A program made the translations under genes and the position numbers. A stretch of DNA of 64,000 nt from Pseudarthrobacter defluvii (GTDB lineage: Bacteria > Actinomycetota > Actinomycetes > Actinomycetales > Micrococcaceae): contig NZ_CP066362.1 in NCBI RefSeq assembly GCF_030323865.1, forward strand, positions 2,790,001 through 2,854,000. The letters run 5' to 3'. Each line of letters opens with the position of its first letter. The stretch's first letter is position 1. The notes beneath the pieces were generated by a model that was not told the DNA's origin, searched no databases, and worked only from the letters and a program-made list of their open reading frames with translations. Of this stretch, positions 30,577 to 61,455 are shown piece after piece.

Positions 30577-31482
30577 TTACCGGGAAAGGCCGGCGGCGAA
30601 GCCGGGCAGCCATTCCCGCAGGCCCGGACCCAGATCTTCGCTGTCGACGGCCAGCTGGACGCAGGCCTTGAGGTAGCTCAGCTTGTCTCCGGTGTCGTAG
30701 CGGCGGCCGCGGAAGACCACTCCGTAGACGCCGTGCCCCTCGGCATCACCGGAGGCAAGTTCCTGGAGGGCATCCGTCAGCTGGATTTCACCGCCCCGTC
30801 CCGGCTTAGTGTGCTCGAGGACTTCGAACACGGCCGGGTGCAGGACATAGCGCCCGATCAGCGCAAGGTTGGACGGGGCTTCCTCCGGTGTGGGCTTCTC
30901 CACCAGCCGGTTGACGCGGACGTAGCCTTCGCCGTCAATCTCCTGAATGTCGGCGCAGCCGTAGGCACTGATCTGCGAGGGTTCCACCTCAATAAGCGCG
31001 ACGACGGACCCTCCCGTTTTCGCCTGCACGTCCATCATGGTGCTGAGCAGTTCGTCGCGGGCATCAATCAGGTCATCCCCCAGCAGGACGGCGAAGGCTT
31101 CGTTGCCTACATGCTGCTTTGCCCGGAGTACCGCGTGTCCCAGCCCGTGGGGGTCGCCCTGCCGGACGTAGTGGATGTCGCCCAGTTGGCTGGCCGCCTG
31201 GATAGATGCAAGCTTTTCCGTGTCTCCCTTGTCCTCCAGCGTCGATTCAAGGGAGGGCACCCTGTCGAAGTGGTCTTCCAGGGCGCGTTTGTTGCGGCCG
31301 GTAATCATCAGAACGTCGTTGAGGCCTACATGGACCGCTTCCTCCACCACATACTGGATGGCAGGCTTATCCACGACGGGAAGCATTTCCTTAGGCATCG
31401 CCTTGGTGGCGGGCAGGAACCTGGTGCCAAGGCCCGCGGCGGGAATGACAGCTTTGCGGACTCTGGGGTTACTGGTGTTCAC
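30577..31482 (-). CDS. galU: UTP-glucose-1-phosphate uridylyltransferase
   Basis: Makes UDP-glucose for envelope glycans and trehalose. 301 residues. The nucleotidyltransferase start KAVIPAAGLGTRFLPATKAMPKEMLPVVDKP (about 10-40), LLGDDLIDARDELLSTM and the GGEIQLTDALQEL substrate loop are intact. GTG at 31480-31482 with TAGATT 6 nt upstream, so leaderless. Divergent from the 5-formyl-THF cyclo-ligase gene. Confidence 0.96.
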   Translation of the reverse strand: MNTSNPRVRKAVIPAAGLGTRFLPATKAMPKEMLPVVDKPAIQYVVEEAVHVGLNDVLMITGRNKRALEDHFDRVPSLESTLEDKGDTEKLASIQAASQLGDIHYVRQGDPHGLGHAVLRAKQHVGNEAFAVLLGDDLIDARDELLSTMMDVQAKTGGSVVALIEVEPSQISAYGCADIQEIDGEGYVRVNRLVEKPTPEEAPSNLALIGRYVLHPAVFEVLEHTKPGRGGEIQLTDALQELASGDAEGHGVYGVVFRGRRYDTGDKLSYLKACVQLAVDSEDLGPGLREWLPGFAAGLSR

Positions 31483-31488
31483 CGGACT

Positions 31489-31494
31489 AATCTA
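31489..31494 (-). promoter_or_regulatory. -10 box of leaderless galU promoter
   Basis: Minus-strand TAGATT, then AGTCCG, then the GTG start of galU at 31482. Confidence 0.65.
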
Positions 31495-31585
31495 ACGTCA
31501 GCGTCAAGCATTTCAGTAACCATCGGCGCGGCAGGCTGGCATCCAGCCAGAAGCCGTAGAGTACTGGCAACGCAGGAAGGACACC

Positions 31586-32206
31586 ATGCTGCAGGAGACG
31601 AACGCGGTCAAGGACGATATCCGGGCCGCCCACCGGCGCCGGCGCGCCGGGCTGACCCCGGCGCAACTGGAAGCGGCAGGCAGCGCCCTGGCTGTGCACG
31701 GCAATGCCTGGGCCGGGACGGTCACCGGCGGCCGGCCCGGCATTGCGTGCGTGTACCTGGGCGTGGGACAGGAACCGCCTACCCTGCCGCTCATTAATGC
31801 CCTGCACAGCAGCGGGCACAAGGTGCTGCTTCCGGTGTGCGAACCCGGCAGGGAGCTGAGCTGGGTGTTTTGGACGCCGGAAACAGGCTTCGAACGCAGT
31901 AAGTATGCGCCCATCCTTGAGCCCGCCGGACCCCGGCACGGGCCTGAAACGGCAGGCGGGGCGGCAGTCCTTTTCATTCCCGCCACCGCGGTGGACCGTG
32001 CCGGCAACAGGATCGGCCAGGGCGGCGGGTACTACGACAAGTTCCTGGGGCATCTTGCCACGGCCGGGAAGGAAATTCCGCTGGCCGCTGTTATCTACGA
32101 CGATGAATTGCTGCCTGCGGGACGGATTCCTGCGGAGGAGTTCGACCGGCCGGTGCCGGCGGTCCTTGCGCCGTCCGGGTACCAGCCGCTCACGGGCGGC
32201 GCCTGA
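31586..32206 (+). CDS. 5-formyltetrahydrofolate cyclo-ligase
   Basis: Converts 5-formyl-THF to 5,10-methenyl-THF with ATP. 206 residues; basic N-terminus RAAHRRRRAGL and the family motif VDRAGNRIGQGGGYYDKFL near residues 134-152 are clear. ATG 31586 has GGAAGGA 4 nt upstream; TAGAGT at 31558-31563 would give a leader of about 16 nt, so this one is translated from a ribosome site. Lies between galU and the Ruc-like gene, matching mycobacterial Rv0992c. Confidence 0.94.
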   Translation: MLQETNAVKDDIRAAHRRRRAGLTPAQLEAAGSALAVHGNAWAGTVTGGRPGIACVYLGVGQEPPTLPLINALHSSGHKVLLPVCEPGRELSWVFWTPETGFERSKYAPILEPAGPRHGPETAGGAAVLFIPATAVDRAGNRIGQGGGYYDKFLGHLATAGKEIPLAAVIYDDELLPAGRIPAEEFDRPVPAVLAPSGYQPLTGGA

Positions 32207-32230
32207 CCCCGGGCCGTCCGGGGGCAGTGA

Positions 32231-32236
32231 TAGAAT
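32231..32236 (+). promoter_or_regulatory. -10 box of the Ruc-like gene
   Basis: TAGAAT, whose last T is the first base of the CIRCE element; transcription would start near 32243, inside the left CIRCE arm, leaving a leader of about 75 nt. Confidence 0.6.
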
Positions 32237-32262
32237 TAGCACTCAGGCCCTGCGACTGCTAA
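32236..32262 (+). promoter_or_regulatory. CIRCE element (HrcA operator) upstream of the FmdB/Ruc-like gene
   Basis: TTAGCACTC, nine-base spacer, GACTGCTAA: 17 of 18 conserved CIRCE positions match (the right arm has C where consensus GAGTGCTAA has G). Spacer length is exactly 9. It begins at the -10 box, the classic location for HrcA repression, and resembles the two sites upstream of groES in this window. Confidence 0.85.
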
Positions 32263-32317
32263 TGGTTTACCAGGTGGCAGCTCGGGACCTCTCGTTTGCC
32301 CAAGAGGAGGAGCACCA

Positions 32318-32590
32318 GTGCCAACATATGCTTACGCCTGCAAGGATTGCGGCCACGCCTTCGACATTGTCCAGTCGTTCTCGGACAGCAGCCTGACGTC
32401 CTGCCCTGAATGCCAGGGTACGTTGCGCAAGAAGTTCAACAGCGTGGGTGTCGTCTTCAAGGGCTCCGGTTTCTACCGCACCGACTCGCGCGATTCCAAG
32501 GGCAGCTCCGTCTCCCCGGCGCCGGCCGCGGCCCCGGCTGCGCCCGCAGCTGCCCCCGCCGCTTCGGCGCCGGCTGCAGCAGCCAGCTAG
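32318..32590 (+). CDS. FmdB-type zinc-ribbon protein, probable Ruc-like redox-regulated chaperone
   Basis: 90 residues: a zinc ribbon with CKDC (Cys8, Cys11) and CPEC (Cys29, Cys32), then about 30 residues of Ala/Pro-rich disordered tail from residue 60. In M. tuberculosis the orthologous position (Rv0991c, Ruc) encodes a zinc-cysteine protein with a disordered C-terminus that becomes an active holdase on oxidation and is under HrcA control. Size, motif order, tail, gene neighbourhood and the CIRCE site upstream all agree. GTG start with AGGAGG 7-8 nt upstream. Chaperone activity here is inferred. Confidence 0.85.
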   Translation: MPTYAYACKDCGHAFDIVQSFSDSSLTSCPECQGTLRKKFNSVGVVFKGSGFYRTDSRDSKGSSVSPAPAAAPAAPAAAPAASAPAAAAS

Positions 32591-32612
32591 ACAGGCATAA
32601 GTCTTAAGTACG

Positions 32613-32646
32613 ACGGCGGCCGGCGCGTTCCAGCGCCGGCCGCCGT
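32613..32646. terminator. Terminator after the Ruc-like gene
   Basis: Perfect 14-bp GC-rich stem (ACGGCGGCCGGCGC at 32613-32626 and complement at 32633-32646) with a 6-nt loop, 22 nt beyond the stop. Confidence 0.8.
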
Positions 32647-32693
32647 TGTCCACATAGCGTTCGTTCCGGCTCCCCAGGTGCGTTTACCGCAAC

Positions 32694-32699
32694 TAGCGT
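32694..32699 (+). promoter_or_regulatory. -10 box of a leaderless promoter (SAF-domain gene)
   Basis: TAGCGT, then GGGCGC, then ATG 32706. Confidence 0.65.
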
Positions 32700-32705
32700 G
32701 GGCGC

Positions 32706-33434
32706 ATGTCCAGACTTCCCCGCCGTCGCCGCGACCGTTACCGGCCTCCCGCCAGCCCCCGAAACGTTGCACGCCGCGGTAAAGACCGTTCCCCGGGGGC
32801 ACGTCTCGCCGGGTGGCTGAACCGCAACCGCAGGCTTGTTGCCGCGTTGTTGTTATGCGCAGCTGCAGCCCTTACGGTGCAGCAGCTCACTCCTCCCCCG
32901 CTCGCCACTGTGACGGCGTTGGCCGCAGCCCGGGATCTTCCCGCCGGGACCGCCGTGACGGCAGCAGATCTGGCGCACCTCCAGGTGCCGCCGGGAATGG
33001 TGGCCGACGGCTTTTTGCAGGATGACGCCGCCGCAGCGGGCAAGCAACTGGCCGCACCCGTGCGCAAAGGCCAACTCCTCACGGACGCTCAACTGCTCGG
33101 TCCGGGACTGCTCGCAGGCACTCCGCCCGGTTCAGCGGCGGTTCCCCTCCGCATGGCGGACGCCGCATCCATCCAGCTGGTCTCCCCCGGCCAGCTGGTC
33201 AACGTGGTGCTGACATCGGCCAACGGGTTTGACCAGCAGGGTCCCTCCCAGGTCCTGGCATCTGCCGTCCCCGTCCTATGGACTTCAAACAACGGCGGCC
33301 AGGGCGGGCAATGGCTGGGCACCACCGAAACGGATGGACTGATTGTGGTGGCGGCCAACGCGGAACAATCCTCGCGCCTGGCCGGAGCCTCAACCCAGGG
33401 CCGGCTGTTCTTCGTCCTGGTCGGCCCGCCGTAA
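32706..33434 (+). CDS. SAF-domain protein, CpaB/RcpC-like
   Basis: 242 residues. A basic cytoplasmic start, one membrane helix (about 43-60), then an SAF domain (ATVTALAAARDLPAGTAVTAADLAHLQVPPGMV, about 68-100) and a C-terminal RcpC/CpaB-like region (AAVPLRMADAASIQLVSPGQLVNVVLT). CpaB proteins help assemble tight-adherence (Flp) pili, but no other tad/cpa genes are nearby, so this copy is an orphan whose role is uncertain. Confidence 0.8.
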   Translation: MSRLPRRRRDRYRPPASPRNVARRGKDRSPGARLAGWLNRNRRLVAALLLCAAAALTVQQLTPPPLATVTALAAARDLPAGTAVTAADLAHLQVPPGMVADGFLQDDAAAAGKQLAAPVRKGQLLTDAQLLGPGLLAGTPPGSAAVPLRMADAASIQLVSPGQLVNVVLTSANGFDQQGPSQVLASAVPVLWTSNNGGQGGQWLGTTETDGLIVVAANAEQSSRLAGASTQGRLFFVLVGPP

Positions 33435-33514
33435 CATCAGCCAGCCGCACCGGGCCGAAACCGGACACCGGGTAGTCGATCCCCTGCGCCGGGTCCCTCC
33501 GGACGCCGCGGTCC

Positions 33515-33542
33515 GCCCCAGTGCGGTCAGCCCCAGTGCGGT
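33515..33542. repeat. Tandem 15-nt repeat across the helicase-nuclease stop codon
   Basis: GCCCCAGTGCGGT occurs at 33515-33527 and again at 33530-33542, period 15. The stop codon lies between the copies, so the terminal PHWG codons are repeated just after the gene end. Probably a small slippage duplication. Confidence 0.6.
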
Positions 33543-36500
33543 GGCTTCTGTTCCTTCAACCAGGTGTCATGGTCGTCCTCCCGGTCACCCCAGCTGCGGG
33601 CATCGTCCTCAGCAGCCTTGCTCGGAAGGATTTCCTCACTGCCACCCTGTGCTGTGCGTGCGGCCGGGGCGGATGCCGCAGCGTCCCCGGAGGAGGCAGG
33701 GCCAGCACCTGGTGCAGTCTCTTGGTTCTTGTTCCGATCGTGGTGCATATCTTCCTCGGGCCCGGCGTTCCCGGCCCTGTCTTCCTTACTCGGGTTTTCG
33801 TTGCTCACGGGGTCCGACTCCTCGATTTTCGGGCTGCCCGAGCGCCTGCCCTGGCCGTGGTGACCCGAACCGGCGCCGGAACGGTCCGCGCCGGACGCGT
33901 CCGAGTTGCCGTCGGCGCTGTGCCGGATTGTCCCGGCTTCCTGGCGGTCCCCGTCGCTGTCCAGGTTTCCGGCCGCCCCGCCCGGCAGGTAGGAGGCGGC
34001 GGATGGTGCAGTATCGATTCCATTGAGCGCCTGGTGGACGTCGTCGTCAAGGAATCCCGTGGAGGTGGTGCTCCTGCCCGGCAGCACGATGTTCTCAAGT
34101 CCCAGGTACCCGGCGATGCGGTCGGCGCAGGTGGAGGGGTCGGTAAAGACTTCAATGGTCCACAGCGGCATGTAGCGCCAGCCCAGGCGTTCCAGCAGTT
34201 CCGGGCGCAGCCGGCTGCGTTCACGTACGCTCATGGCGCGGTACTGCTTGGTGCCGTCGGACTCGATGGCCACAGGCCGGGGCAGGTCCAGGTCGTCTTG
34301 GCCCATGGTGTTCAGGGGGTCGGCCGCGGCGACCACGTCAATGGCGCCGTCGTACTGGTGCCATACCCTGGCCCCGCGGGCGCGGAGCCGGTCCCCCAGA
34401 TCCGCTACCAGGGGGTCCGCCCCAAGTGCCTGTTCGCTGGCAGCGGCGCGGGAGGCCGGGGTACCAAGGTCGGTGTTGCCGGAGATTTCCCGGTCCAGCA
34501 GCGTGTACAGGTCCACGGCGCCATGAGTGAGGCGGGTGTGGTCCAGGTCTTCCGGGCGGAAGCAGGTCAGCACGTGCAGGGAGCGCCGTGCCCGGGTCAT
34601 GGCCAGGGCGAACTTCTCCCGGCCGCCTTCCGCGGACAGCGGCCCGAAGTTGTGCAGTGCACGGCCGTGCGGGGTGCGCCCGAATCCCGGCGAGAAGATG
34701 ACGTGGTCACGGACCAGGCCCTGGGCGCGTTCCAGGTCAACCACCCGGAAGGACTCCGGGCCGGCTCCGAAGAATCCGGCCAGGCCGGGCTGGTTGGACA
34801 GCTGGAGCCGGATGGACTCGCCAATCCGGGCCGCATGCCGGAGGCTGGCGGTCACCACGGCGAGGGAAGTCCGGGGACGCATCCGGGCGTGCTCGAAGAC
34901 CAGTTCCACAACGCGGTTGACCTCTGCCACGACGGATTCCACCCCCTCGTGGTCGGCACTGGGAAGGCCGGTGCCGTCCGGCAGGTACTCAACCAGCAGG
35001 GAGCGGTCCAGCCCCGTGGCGGACTGCCCTTCCGGCAGCCGGCGCAGGCCGCCGTCGTAAAAGCTCTTGCTCAGCTGGAGGACCAGGTCCTCATCCACTG
35101 CGCGGTACACCACGTTGAGCTGCCATACCGGCAGGACGGCGGAGAGCGCGGTAAAGGCGCTTTCCACACGGTGGTGCGCCGATTCTCCGGGCGCCAGCCG
35201 CTCCACCCCCACCGTGAAGGTCCGCGGCGTGGCAATGCGGGAATCGCCGAAGGCAATGACCTGCCGGGCACGGGCAATCGAGGGCAGGACCGCCTGCAGG
35301 GAGGTGGCCTCCGCATCGAGGATCACCACTGCGTCGAAGTGCTGTTCGGCTGGAAGCAGGCCCGTCATGAGGTAGGGGCTGACAGACCAGACGGGAACCA
35401 GTGTGCCGATCAGGTCCGGAGCCTGTGCGGTGAGGGCGGGCAGGGAGACCCGCCCGTCCTTGAGCAGGCTGCGCAGGAGGCCGGCCTGCCGCGGCTGGGC
35501 GGCAATGGCGGTGCGCCACCGCTCCGCCAGGGCCCACCGCAGCCGGGCTGCGCCGCTGGCAATGTGGGCGTTGTCCGCGAGGCGGTACTCTGCCTCGAGC
35601 TGGCGCAGGGCGTCGCCGTCGGACATGGCAAGGTAGTCGTCACCGCTGATCATTGCCTCGAGGGCGGACTGCCACCAGGCCAGCTCCAGTTCGGCCGCGA
35701 CCGATCCTTCGGGCACCTCCCGTTCGGCAAGATCGGCAAGGAGTTCACCGAGGCCGTGTTCGCGCATGCTCTCAATGAGGAGCGTGCGTTCGGGCAGCGT
35801 TTTGAGTGTGTCGGTGTCCGCCACCAGCCGTTCCAGGCGTTCCATCAGCTGCCGGTAGGGAACGCCGGTCAGTGACCCGCCGTCTTCGGTATGCCGCAGG
35901 GCCTCGCCCAGTTGCGCCAGCTCCTTGTCCAGCGAGCGGTACATGGCGTTCATTTCCGCCAGGCCCGATGGAACGGCGGGGTGCCGCTGCGTGGTCGCGT
36001 ATCCGGCCCACAGGGCCCGCTGTTCCTGGACCAGCAGCAGGGACGAGTGCAGATCCGCGATGTGGACGCCCGGGCGCACATATTCCTTGGCCACCCGGCG
36101 CAGCCTGGAGCGCTGCATGGCGGTCAACTCGATGCCGCGCTCACGCCGCCACGAGGACGGCGCGGTGGCGGAGATCAGGTCCGTCACCGGGCGGTCGAAG
36201 ATGTCCGGGGTGAACTTGTCCAGGCTGCCGCGCACGGCGACCAGCAGTTCCAGCTGTTCGCCCCACTCGGCGAAGGATTCGCCCAGGCGGATTTCGGCGT
36301 GCTCGGCAACGGCGTCCATGCGGTCGCGGAGGATGGGAAGGCTCTTGGCCACAGACCGGACCAGGTCCTGCGCTTCCTCGGTTTCCTTGCGGGTCAGCAA
36401 CCTTGCGCCGTGCCAGGGGCTGGTGGTGGCCGCCTTGCTGAAGCTGCCCAGCTCGGCAGCCCGGCGCAGACGGCCGGCGAGCTCCTCGCGGTCCCGGATG

Positions 36501-37843
36501 CTGTCCAGCACGCTGCGCTTAAGCCGGACGGTGGTGGCCGGTGCCGGGTGGATGGAGGTGAGCTCGGCGAGGGACTGCATGGCCTGGTACGGCGAGCAGC
36601 CCCAGCGTTCGCGGACGTTGTGCAGCGATGCCACGTGGTCCATCAGCGCGTGCCGGTGCTCGGTGAGGGTGTTGTGCAGGTTCCCCAGTTGCGGTTCCAG
36701 CGACTTCTCGTTGCGGACGATCGCCCGGACCAGCTGGCCCTTCAGCTGTTGGGCCGTGACGTTCCCGGTGAGCTGGAGCAGGATGGAGTCCAGGCCCAGC
36801 GACTCCAGGTGTCCGGAGACCTCGTTGAGGCTGGCGCGGCGGTCGCCCACCACCAGCACTGTCTTGCCGGCATCCACCAGGGCGCCGATGGTATTGATAG
36901 CGGTCTGGGTCTGGCCGGTGCCGGGAGGGCTGCTGACCACCAGGGAGTCCCCGGCGCGGGCTGCGTCGATCACATACTGCTGGTCCGTGTCCGCGTCCAG
37001 CAGGAGCAGCTCATCCTTGGGGTGCCGGTTGTCCAGGTTCGGGAAGCGGGACGGGTCCGGTTCCTCGACGTCTACCATCTCGCCGCCGGCGGCGGTGGCC
37101 AGCGCGGACACGATGGGGTGGGTGTCGTTGATCCAGGGGTCGTCCAGGTTGCCGGAGAGATCGGCGAAGGTGGAAACGAGCAGGTTGTGCTGGGTTTCCG
37201 CTCCGTGGATGGGCCGGATCAGGGTGGCCAGACGGTCAAGGACGGGCTGGGGGTCGAACCGGGCGGTGCTGTAGGCCAGGCGGGTCACGGCGTTGACGTC
37301 GAAAACGATGCCGTGGATGTTCTTCAGGTGCCGCACCAGTGCCGGGTTAATTTGCGCCTGCTCGGTGAGCTGCAGTTCAAAGTCGTCCTCCCCCGGCCGA
37401 ACCGTGAGGGAGATGGCGGTCAGCATCACGGGGGCGGAGACACGCTGGGGCTTACCTCCGACGGCGGAGGTCCACACCACCGTTCCCGCGGACAGGTACC
37501 CGGCGTCGATGCCGCGGTCGTTGGCGAGCTCGAAGATCTTGGACCGGATGTTGCGCGAAGCCCTGGCCGCCACCACGTACTGCTGCCGGTCCCGGATCAG
37601 GGTGGACAGGCGGGTGCGGCGCCCGGCCATGAGCTGGGCGAGTCCGGAGGGGTGTGCCGAGGTGAGGTCGATTGAACCTTCGGGCGTCTTGGTGAAGCGC
37701 AGCATTGTGTCCGCGCCGGTGACGGGTTTGAGCCCGGACAGCCATTTACGAAGCTCTTCCGAGCCCTCCGGGTGGCCTTGACCAACTGACACTTCTGCCT
37801 TCTTTTCTGCGTTTGCACGTGACGCCCTGGACCATACCGGCAT
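33527..37843 (-). CDS. Large SF1-helicase-like protein with C-terminal REase_MTES_1575-type nuclease domain; ATPase motifs degenerate
   Basis: 1438 residues from the ATG at 37841-37843, chosen because TACTCT ends 7 nt upstream; an ATG 48 nt earlier is possible. Order: unknown N-terminal region (1-290); helicase core with P-loop SPPGTGQTQT (about 305-314, Gln311 where the catalytic Lys should be); a helical insertion (380-830); motif II LDAEATS (about 842-848, DA instead of DE); motif V/VI region ERAQGLVRDHVIF and REKFALAMTRARRS (about 1038-1090); PD-(D/E)XK-like domain with VAIESDGTKQYRAMSVRERSRLRPELLERLGWR (about 1190-1225); and about 170 disordered residues. It looks like a helicase-nuclease whose ATPase is weakened or lost. 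Confidence 0.85.
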   Translation of the reverse strand: MPVWSRASRANAEKKAEVSVGQGHPEGSEELRKWLSGLKPVTGADTMLRFTKTPEGSIDLTSAHPSGLAQLMAGRRTRLSTLIRDRQQYVVAARASRNIRSKIFELANDRGIDAGYLSAGTVVWTSAVGGKPQRVSAPVMLTAISLTVRPGEDDFELQLTEQAQINPALVRHLKNIHGIVFDVNAVTRLAYSTARFDPQPVLDRLATLIRPIHGAETQHNLLVSTFADLSGNLDDPWINDTHPIVSALATAAGGEMVDVEEPDPSRFPNLDNRHPKDELLLLDADTDQQYVIDAARAGDSLVVSSPPGTGQTQTAINTIGALVDAGKTVLVVGDRRASLNEVSGHLESLGLDSILLQLTGNVTAQQLKGQLVRAIVRNEKSLEPQLGNLHNTLTEHRHALMDHVASLHNVRERWGCSPYQAMQSLAELTSIHPAPATTVRLKRSVLDSIRDREELAGRLRRAAELGSFSKAATTSPWHGARLLTRKETEEAQDLVRSVAKSLPILRDRMDAVAEHAEIRLGESFAEWGEQLELLVAVRGSLDKFTPDIFDRPVTDLISATAPSSWRRERGIELTAMQRSRLRRVAKEYVRPGVHIADLHSSLLLVQEQRALWAGYATTQRHPAVPSGLAEMNAMYRSLDKELAQLGEALRHTEDGGSLTGVPYRQLMERLERLVADTDTLKTLPERTLLIESMREHGLGELLADLAEREVPEGSVAAELELAWWQSALEAMISGDDYLAMSDGDALRQLEAEYRLADNAHIASGAARLRWALAERWRTAIAAQPRQAGLLRSLLKDGRVSLPALTAQAPDLIGTLVPVWSVSPYLMTGLLPAEQHFDAVVILDAEATSLQAVLPSIARARQVIAFGDSRIATPRTFTVGVERLAPGESAHHRVESAFTALSAVLPVWQLNVVYRAVDEDLVLQLSKSFYDGGLRRLPEGQSATGLDRSLLVEYLPDGTGLPSADHEGVESVVAEVNRVVELVFEHARMRPRTSLAVVTASLRHAARIGESIRLQLSNQPGLAGFFGAGPESFRVVDLERAQGLVRDHVIFSPGFGRTPHGRALHNFGPLSAEGGREKFALAMTRARRSLHVLTCFRPEDLDHTRLTHGAVDLYTLLDREISGNTDLGTPASRAAASEQALGADPLVADLGDRLRARGARVWHQYDGAIDVVAAADPLNTMGQDDLDLPRPVAIESDGTKQYRAMSVRERSRLRPELLERLGWRYMPLWTIEVFTDPSTCADRIAGYLGLENIVLPGRSTTSTGFLDDDVHQALNGIDTAPSAASYLPGGAAGNLDSDGDRQEAGTIRHSADGNSDASGADRSGAGSGHHGQGRRSGSPKIEESDPVSNENPSKEDRAGNAGPEEDMHHDRNKNQETAPGAGPASSGDAAASAPAARTAQGGSEEILPSKAAEDDARSWGDREDDHDTWLKEQKPPHWG

Positions 37844-37850
37844 AGGTTCG

Positions 37851-37856
37851 AGAGTA
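37851..37856 (-). promoter_or_regulatory. -10 box of the helicase-nuclease gene
   Basis: Minus-strand TACTCT, seven bases, then ATG 37843; indicates a leaderless mRNA and sets the start. Confidence 0.5.
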
Positions 37857-37931
37857 GCCGCTTCGGCGCCGGACTTGAGCGACCGCAACACTGGAGCACG
37901 GGAAATTGCGGAGGATTCGTTGGGGAAAAGC

Positions 37932-59289: not shown

Positions 59290-60912
<1,623 letters not shown>

Positions 60913-60978: not shown

Positions 60979-61272
60979 TTACTTTACGACGATCGCCAGG
61001 ACGTCGCGGGCGGAGAGCACAAGGTACTCGGTGCCGCCGGTCTTGACTTCGGTTCCGCCGTACTTGGAGTAGATGACAACGTCGCCAACGGCTACGTCAA
61101 CGGGGACGCGGTTGCCGTCTTCGAAGCGGCCGGGGCCTACTGCGACAACTTCGCCTTCCTGCGGCTTCTCCTGTGCGGAGTCCGGGATGACCAGGCCGGA
61201 AGCCGTGGTCTGCTCGGCTTCGAGCGGGCGGACAACAATACGATCCTCAAGAGGCTTAATAGAGACCGACAC
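60979..61272 (-). CDS. groES: Co-chaperonin GroES
   Basis: 97 residues, intact: [45 protein letters not shown], then the mobile-loop, [29 protein letters not shown] start at 61270-61272 with AAGGAGAGG 5 nt upstream. First gene of the groES-groL operon, 78 nt before groL. Confidence 0.98.
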
Positions 61273-61382: not shown

Positions 61383-61409
61383 TTAGCACCCTCCTAGGGA
61401 GAGTGCTAA
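61383..61409 (-). promoter_or_regulatory. CIRCE element, proximal to groES
   Basis: TTAGCACCC, nine-base spacer, GAGTGCTAA (one mismatch in the left arm). It begins right after the groES -10 box and includes the expected transcription start, so bound HrcA would block initiation. Confidence 0.93.
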
Positions 61410-61414
61410 TGAAG

Positions 61415-61443
61415 ACTCTATGTAAGGGTTAGCACTCGGTCAA
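61415..61443 (-). promoter_or_regulatory. groES promoter (-35/-10)
   Basis: On the minus strand TTGACC (61438-61443), 17-nt spacer, TAGAGT (61415-61420). The -35 lies in the distal CIRCE spacer; the -10 ends 5 nt before the proximal CIRCE. Optimal spacing suggests a strong housekeeping promoter under repression. Leader to groES is about 136 nt. Confidence 0.85.
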
Positions 61444-61455
61444 GGTGAGTGCCAA
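61429..61455 (-). promoter_or_regulatory. CIRCE element, distal, overlapping the groES -35
   Basis: TTAGCACTC, nine-base spacer, GAGTGCCAA (one mismatch in the right arm). Its spacer holds the -35 hexamer. Confidence 0.93.

Follow-up and report, generated by a model that had tools for sequence, protein, structure and literature searches.

An HrcA-type operator before the ruc orthologue of Pseudarthrobacter defluvii and its spread among actinomycetes

A short zinc-ribbon gene lies near the middle of the window (the whole stretch of 64,000 nucleotides analysed here, C1:2790001-2854000 in a genome of 4.5 Mb and 4 contigs). We consider it, with a probability of about 0.8, to be a ruc orthologue that is repressed by HrcA through a CIRCE operator together with the chaperonins and that encodes an oxidation-activated holdase. 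In M. tuberculosis, HrcA directly represses ruc, and the oxidised Ruc protein is a holdase (Becker 2020, PMC7448276). Ruc has been proposed as the Hsp33 substitute of actinobacteria, the HrcA link coming, in the accessible text of that report, from M. tuberculosis (PMC7448276). The present analysis adds how broadly the HrcA operator is found on ruc, and a branch of the family devoid of cysteine. Our literature search found no paper on that breadth or on a tie between FmdB proteins and HrcA/CIRCE, which is weak evidence because most subscription journals lay outside the search. If the operator occurs in most of the actinomycete families sampled, Ruc would count as a core target of HrcA, open to study in harmless soil strains. 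The losses of the operator (with apparent operon capture in f4) and the cysteine-free, partly CIRCE-bearing branch would serve as natural tests of which switch matters, heat or oxidation.

The ruc gene, its protein and its neighbours

The gene and its surroundings comprise the following features.

30577..31482, minus strand: galU, divergent neighbour, kept in mycobacteria
31586..32206, plus strand: gene for 5-formyltetrahydrofolate cyclo-ligase, the neighbour upstream, also conserved in mycobacteria
32318..32590, plus strand: ruc orthologue, FmdB-family zinc ribbon; GTG start, 90 aa, C8, C11, C29 and C32, Ala/Pro-rich tail
32610..32649, plus strand: 17-bp G+C-rich hairpin directly 3' of ruc; MFE -40.7 kcal/mol, z -6.7, without a T tail

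The preliminary description of this DNA had assigned the gene to the FmdB family and noted two CxxC pairs and an Ala/Pro-rich tail in its protein. The profile searches agree with this family: the protein scores 70.3 bits against TIGR02605 (cut-off 31.3) and 59.5 bits against Pfam Zn_ribbon_8 (cut-off 34.4). Its sequence reads CxxC-N17-CxxC at C8/C11/C29/C32, followed by a low-complexity tail rich in Ala, Pro and Ser. The closest named relatives come from Pseudarthrobacter and Arthrobacter, and both CxxC pairs are kept in all of the best 120 homologues. A search by sequence for a related solved structure gave none (best E 0.079).

Likeness to M. tuberculosis Ruc was measured through the M. crocinum orthologue (L072, 100% identical to the named M. 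crocinum protein), with which the window protein shares 43 of 60 residues (72%) without gaps. M. tuberculosis Ruc (Rv0991c) carries its zinc-ribbon cysteines at the same numbers, 8, 11, 29 and 32, and its gene likewise has an HrcA operator (PMC7448276); the window protein differs from it in the Ala/Pro-rich tail. The profile search found a single TIGR02605 match in the window genome, and 387 of 393 genomes of the class have a match, nearly always in single copy. As the preliminary description had claimed, the neighbourhood resembles the mycobacterial one. By motif, the cyclo-ligase/galU neighbours were recognised in 44 of 130 loci: 6/6 in the window's family (including the window genome), 12/12 in f4, 15/19 in f11 (the family of L072, which holds Mycobacterium), 2/2 in f12, 2/2 in f42, 5/10 in f22 (galU only), 1/3 in f35, 1/2 in f39, and none in the remaining families. 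The sole TIGR02605 match, the identity with the mycobacterial protein and the shared neighbours led us to conclude that, at the level of sequence, the window gene is the orthologue of mycobacterial ruc and does not belong with unrelated FmdB proteins. Outside the cyclo-ligase/galU loci, orthology rests on sequence and copy number.

The hairpin behind ruc is a possible transcript end, although the terminator scan did not report it; in M. tuberculosis, by comparison, the gene forms an rv0991c-rv0990c operon (PMC8557902).

Operator and promoter region

Two elements were read in the region between the cyclo-ligase gene and ruc.

32228..32236, plus strand: extended -10-like element TGATAGAAT, a motif reading; its final T doubles as the first position of CIRCE
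32236..32262, plus strand: predicted CIRCE (HrcA operator), TTAGCACTC-AGGCCCTGC-GACTGCTAA, 17/18 consensus positions

The 17/18 match given for CIRCE in the preliminary description was recovered at the same place and strand, 55 nt before the GTG start, with its single mismatch at position 32256. Shuffles of the window gave 0.01 matches per window at three or fewer mismatches. The mismatch turns the second half-site into GACTGC, and the three genomes of the same genus have the same C. All six genomes of the window's family carry CIRCE before ruc with 0-3 mismatches, the palindrome being perfect in L013, and GACTGC/GCAGTC variants also occur in CIRCE-positive genomes of other families.

The further statement that CIRCE starts at the -10 box applies at motif level. 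The element TGATAGAAT shares its last T with CIRCE, but a two-hexamer sigma-70 scan of 31900-32900 returned no promoter, so the ruc promoter is a motif reading. Over 31000-34000, Rfam gave no match above gathering scores.

Predicted HrcA regulon

The groES region near the end of the window carries the same inverted repeat.

59290..60900, minus strand: groEL-like frame after groES, 536 aa, named by reading its translation
60979..61272, minus strand: groES, in the same predicted HrcA regulon
61383..61409, minus strand: CIRCE of groES, 1 mismatch
61429..61455, minus strand: second CIRCE of groES, 1 mismatch

Genome-wide, seven CIRCE sites were found at three or fewer mismatches and none with the reversed pattern; a looser pattern gave six sites, and its reversed control one. 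Sites with at most two mismatches include two before groEL2 (L001), one before hrcA and the two before groES. The second groEL behind the L001 pair was identified by a family match, and hrcA at 2143010-2144002 on the minus strand has its CIRCE at 2144068-2144094. A CIRCE-like site with three mismatches at C1:1246658-1246684 (L007) was set aside as a probable chance match; it sits between a TetR-like frame, recognised by eye and without an NCBIfam match at 1e-20, and a gene of the fumarase/aspartase family.

A CIRCE at the promoter region and hrcA in the genome, the marks by which we assign a gene to the HrcA regulon, are thus both present for ruc. The claim that ruc joins groES-groL in one HrcA regulon is supported by these operators, which place it in one predicted set with groES-groEL, the second groEL and hrcA. 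The predicted targets agree with the HrcA operons of M. tuberculosis, namely groEL2, groES-groEL1, rv0991c-rv0990c and hrcA-dnaJ2 (PMC8557902, PMC7448276). Chaperonins and hrcA are the classical members of such a regulon, and ruc is a small added one.

Judging from the operators, HrcA bound to CIRCE at the -10 region or transcription start would repress ruc, groES-groEL, the second groEL and hrcA, as demonstrated in M. tuberculosis. Under heat stress HrcA would let go, and Ruc would be made alongside the chaperonins. Pseudarthrobacter ruc is probably under the heat-shock repressor of the main chaperones, as in M. tuberculosis. If the in vitro behaviour of the M. tuberculosis protein carries over, oxidation would make the four cysteines release zinc and turn Ruc into a holdase aiding the DnaK system; by this analogy the window protein is likely to be oxidation-activated. 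Hsp33 (HslO) works in a similar way, as a zinc-holding, oxidation-activated and ATP-independent holdase, but is unrelated to Ruc in sequence (Becker 2020, PMC7448276). No Hsp33 match was found in the window genome, which fits the report that Hsp33 is rare or absent in Actinobacteria (Becker 2020, PMC7448276). Pup is encoded in the genome, and the removal of HrcA has been tied to the Pup-proteasome (Becker 2020, PMC7448276).

Conservation of the operator across actinomycetes

That the Ruc system exists outside mycobacteria, as the preliminary description proposed, is consistent with the orthologue described above but is not new: Ruc was reported in 2020 in 73.84% of 497 Actinobacteria and as a bacteria-wide family (PMC7448276). 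We therefore turn to the operator. The sample consisted of 130 loci (30 + 100), taken from those of the 387 matching class genomes that scored best; the fractions below are therefore not class-wide estimates. We searched for CIRCE within 250 bp upstream of the start codon and counted a locus with at most five mismatches as positive. By this measure 87 of the 130 orthologues were positive (86 at four or fewer mismatches), and the other 43 showed six or more. Shuffled sequences reached five mismatches in 8 of 2600 cases and four or fewer in none; control windows further upstream, up to four per locus, reached five in 1 of 129 loci and never fewer. Positives occurred in 21 of 27 families, with CIRCE 9-99 nt (median 28) from the start codon. 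Judging by this spread, the ruc operator is widespread among actinomycetes, probably old, and not confined to mycobacteria. A composite-pattern count over the class (316 of 393 genomes) was rejected as a count of ruc; double CIRCE arrays before other genes also match the pattern, and the window genome does not.

In 42 of the 87 positives, including 6/6 in the window's family, a TANNNT motif finishes no more than three bases from the edge of CIRCE; in windows moved upstream by 10-60 bases the figure was 0-3 of 87, a control that understates chance because CIRCE itself supplies the last T. A GGAAT...GTT motif, which we take to be a SigH/SigR-like consensus, overlaps or abuts CIRCE in 17 of the 87 positives (0.35 expected from shuffles): 15 of the 18 positives of f11, 1/1 in f24 and 1/2 in f42. 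The spacer in f11 is 18 in 13 of the 15 cases, 19 in L138 and 15 in L033. With the motif concentrated in f11, the overlap looks lineage-specific; of the two sites, that of HrcA is the wider-spread. At M. tuberculosis ruc the SigH and HrcA sites overlap (PMC7448276), whereas GGAAT-N18-GTT was found at CIRCE in none of the six genomes of the window's family, in which the sign of dual SigH and HrcA control is thus lacking.

Losses of the operator

The 43 negatives are unevenly spread. CIRCE was found at ruc in 0/12 loci of f4, 0/10 of f29, 2/7 of f3 and 19/27 of f30, and in 0/1 of f9, 0/2 of f12, 0/1 of f34 and 0/2 of f39. Loss of hrcA was ruled out as the cause: hrcA scored over the cut-off in all 80 genomes tested, that is, in all 43 negatives and 37 of the 87 positives. 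All 80 also have CIRCE-like sites somewhere, though in 13 of them the reversed control also gave one or two matches, equalling the count of the pattern itself in G004. HrcA control of ruc is thus dispensable, since 43 of 130 loci have no site despite the presence of hrcA.

The distance from the cyclo-ligase stop to ruc is 12-51 nt in f4, compared with 47-153 nt in f1 and 52-171 nt in f11 (15 of 19 measurable). The sister family f4 seems to have lost the promoter and operator between the two genes, and ruc would be read together with its neighbour, an apparent operon capture. On a tree of 148 rows with weak resolution (60 columns, 90 of 142 inner branches open), which adds no support to orthology, the presence of CIRCE requires 19 changes and the number of cysteines two. 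If the operator is ancestral, the 19 changes would require repeated loss or some regain.

Ruc and CIRCE outside the class

A scan of a collection with one genome per species (84,980 species) for CIRCE, GGA and an MPxYEY-type start gave at least 117 stretches and is no census. Most of the 117 listed matches are titled Actinomycetota, and a few only uncultured bacterium; 109 have the strict CxxC..CxxC layout. By title only, ten come from other phyla: Dehalococcoidia (L151, L211 and L225), Chloroflexi (L160 and L249), Ignavibacteriales (L171), Deltaproteobacteria (L192), Armatimonadota (L193) and Proteobacteria (L238 and L248). In L249 a dnaJ frame begins just after ruc, giving the order CIRCE-ruc-dnaJ; ruc has been described beside chaperone genes in Chloroflexi and others (Becker 2020, PMC7448276). 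Two further matches, L173 (Acidobacteriota by title) and L178 (Rubrivirga by title), are not counted among the other phyla; by eye their Ruc resembles the actinobacterial protein, which suggests misbinned contigs. The Ruc of L155 (titled Bifidobacterium breve) is, again by eye, very like that of L149 (titled acI actinobacterium), a possible case of misbinning or mislabelling.

Cysteine-poor and cysteine-free Ruc

Among the 117 listed matches, the first 50 residues contain four cysteines in 104 proteins, five in five, three in five and none in two, the remaining one being cut by a contig end. Each three-cysteine protein has a His near the lost position. The two cysteine-free proteins, L222 (Patulibacter) and L239 (Solirubrobacterales), score 38.5 and 32.7 bits against TIGR02605 (cut-off 31.3) and fall narrowly short of the Pfam cut-off. 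With 75 residues of L239 as query, 5665 proteins were returned; none of the best 120 has a cysteine in its first 70 residues, and 117 of them have none at all. The few that bear a name belong to Solirubrobacterales, Solirubrobacteraceae, Conexibacter, Paraconexibacter and Baekduia.

A sample of the phylum, 396 genomes in all, gave 15 matches at 1e-18, of which six are cysteine-free, all in f77, and nine have three cysteines; all 15 genomes have hrcA. CIRCE precedes three of the six cysteine-free loci (2, 3 and 4 mismatches; controls at least 7) and, at five or fewer mismatches, four of the nine three-cysteine loci. Cysteine-free loci with CIRCE are thus L222, L239, L256, L257 and L259, three of them sampled and the first two chosen by CIRCE, and those without it are L258, L260 and L261. 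These Solirubrobacterales-type proteins (L222, L239 and L256-L261) belong to the same family as the window protein and share its FKGxGF motif, but their ribbon has no cysteine and therefore presumably neither a thiol zinc site nor a redox switch. Of the six genomes with a cysteine-free protein, three contain a further Zn_ribbon_8-like match near or over the cut-off. Two of these matches are without the FKGxGF motif; the third is a cysteine-bearing paralogue that follows the cysteine-free ruc in tandem at L273 (G504:C1:2072200-2073600).

Across 51 aligned homologues, M1, P2, Y4, Y6, G49, G51 and D56 are invariant, and Q19, F47, K48 and F52 nearly so; the cysteines could not score as invariant because six of the rows were cysteine-free by choice. 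When the cysteines of M. tuberculosis Ruc are changed to Ser, zinc is lost and the protein is active in vitro without oxidation (PMC7448276), so cysteine-free Ruc proteins may be heat-gated rather than redox-gated holdases. Residues 1-49 of M. tuberculosis Ruc alone are inactive (PMC7448276); since position 49 corresponds, in the numbering of the window protein, to the G of FKG, this truncation also drops the conserved GFxxxD part. As a tentative proposal, to which we give somewhat less than even odds, HrcA control of Ruc may go back to the ancestor of actinobacteria, while the redox switch can be removed: a holdase under two gates, heat acting on transcription and oxidant on the protein, would have become in the Solirubrobacterales type one gated by heat alone, a natural counterpart of the Cys-to-Ser protein. 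In that case the activity common to both would lie in the Y-x-Y strand and the invariant FKGxGFxxxD linker.

Alternative explanations

The operator may be real and bound by HrcA while the protein is no redox holdase; as a zinc protein of FmdB type it would have some other task linked to heat, such as client or DnaK adaptor, and its cysteines would do no more than hold zinc. The absence of cysteines from the invariant residues (with the cysteine-free rows included by choice) and the partial retention of CIRCE by cysteine-poor and cysteine-free relatives would accord with such a role; nevertheless, in M. tuberculosis the orthologue, whose four cysteines occupy the same positions, is activated by oxidation in vitro (PMC7448276), and neither CxxC pair is missing from any of the best 120 homologues of the window protein. 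We regard this role as unlikely, though worth serious consideration. A palindrome that arose by chance or survives as a relic, with ruc free of HrcA in this organism, is a far less probable account of the CIRCE-like site. The off-consensus second half-site, with its C shared within the genus, and the families that lost the operator while retaining hrcA could be read that way, but the rarity of such sites in shuffled windows, the occurrence in all six family genomes with a perfect palindrome in one, and the recurrence of the same half-site variants in positive genomes of other families argue against it. An HrcA-repressed, oxidation-activated Ruc thus remains our preferred reading.

Other observations

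Genomes of f23 (G034, G160, G186, G203, G253 and others) have one or two extra CIRCE-like sites each, often on short contigs, with a similar flank (GGCACCCGTCGC...TTGGCACTCGACC); by eye these are a predicted repeated HrcA target. In the window, a 1454-aa protein is encoded at 33527-37891 on the minus strand, with a REase_MTES_1575 match below the cut-off and a DUF4011 match just over it.
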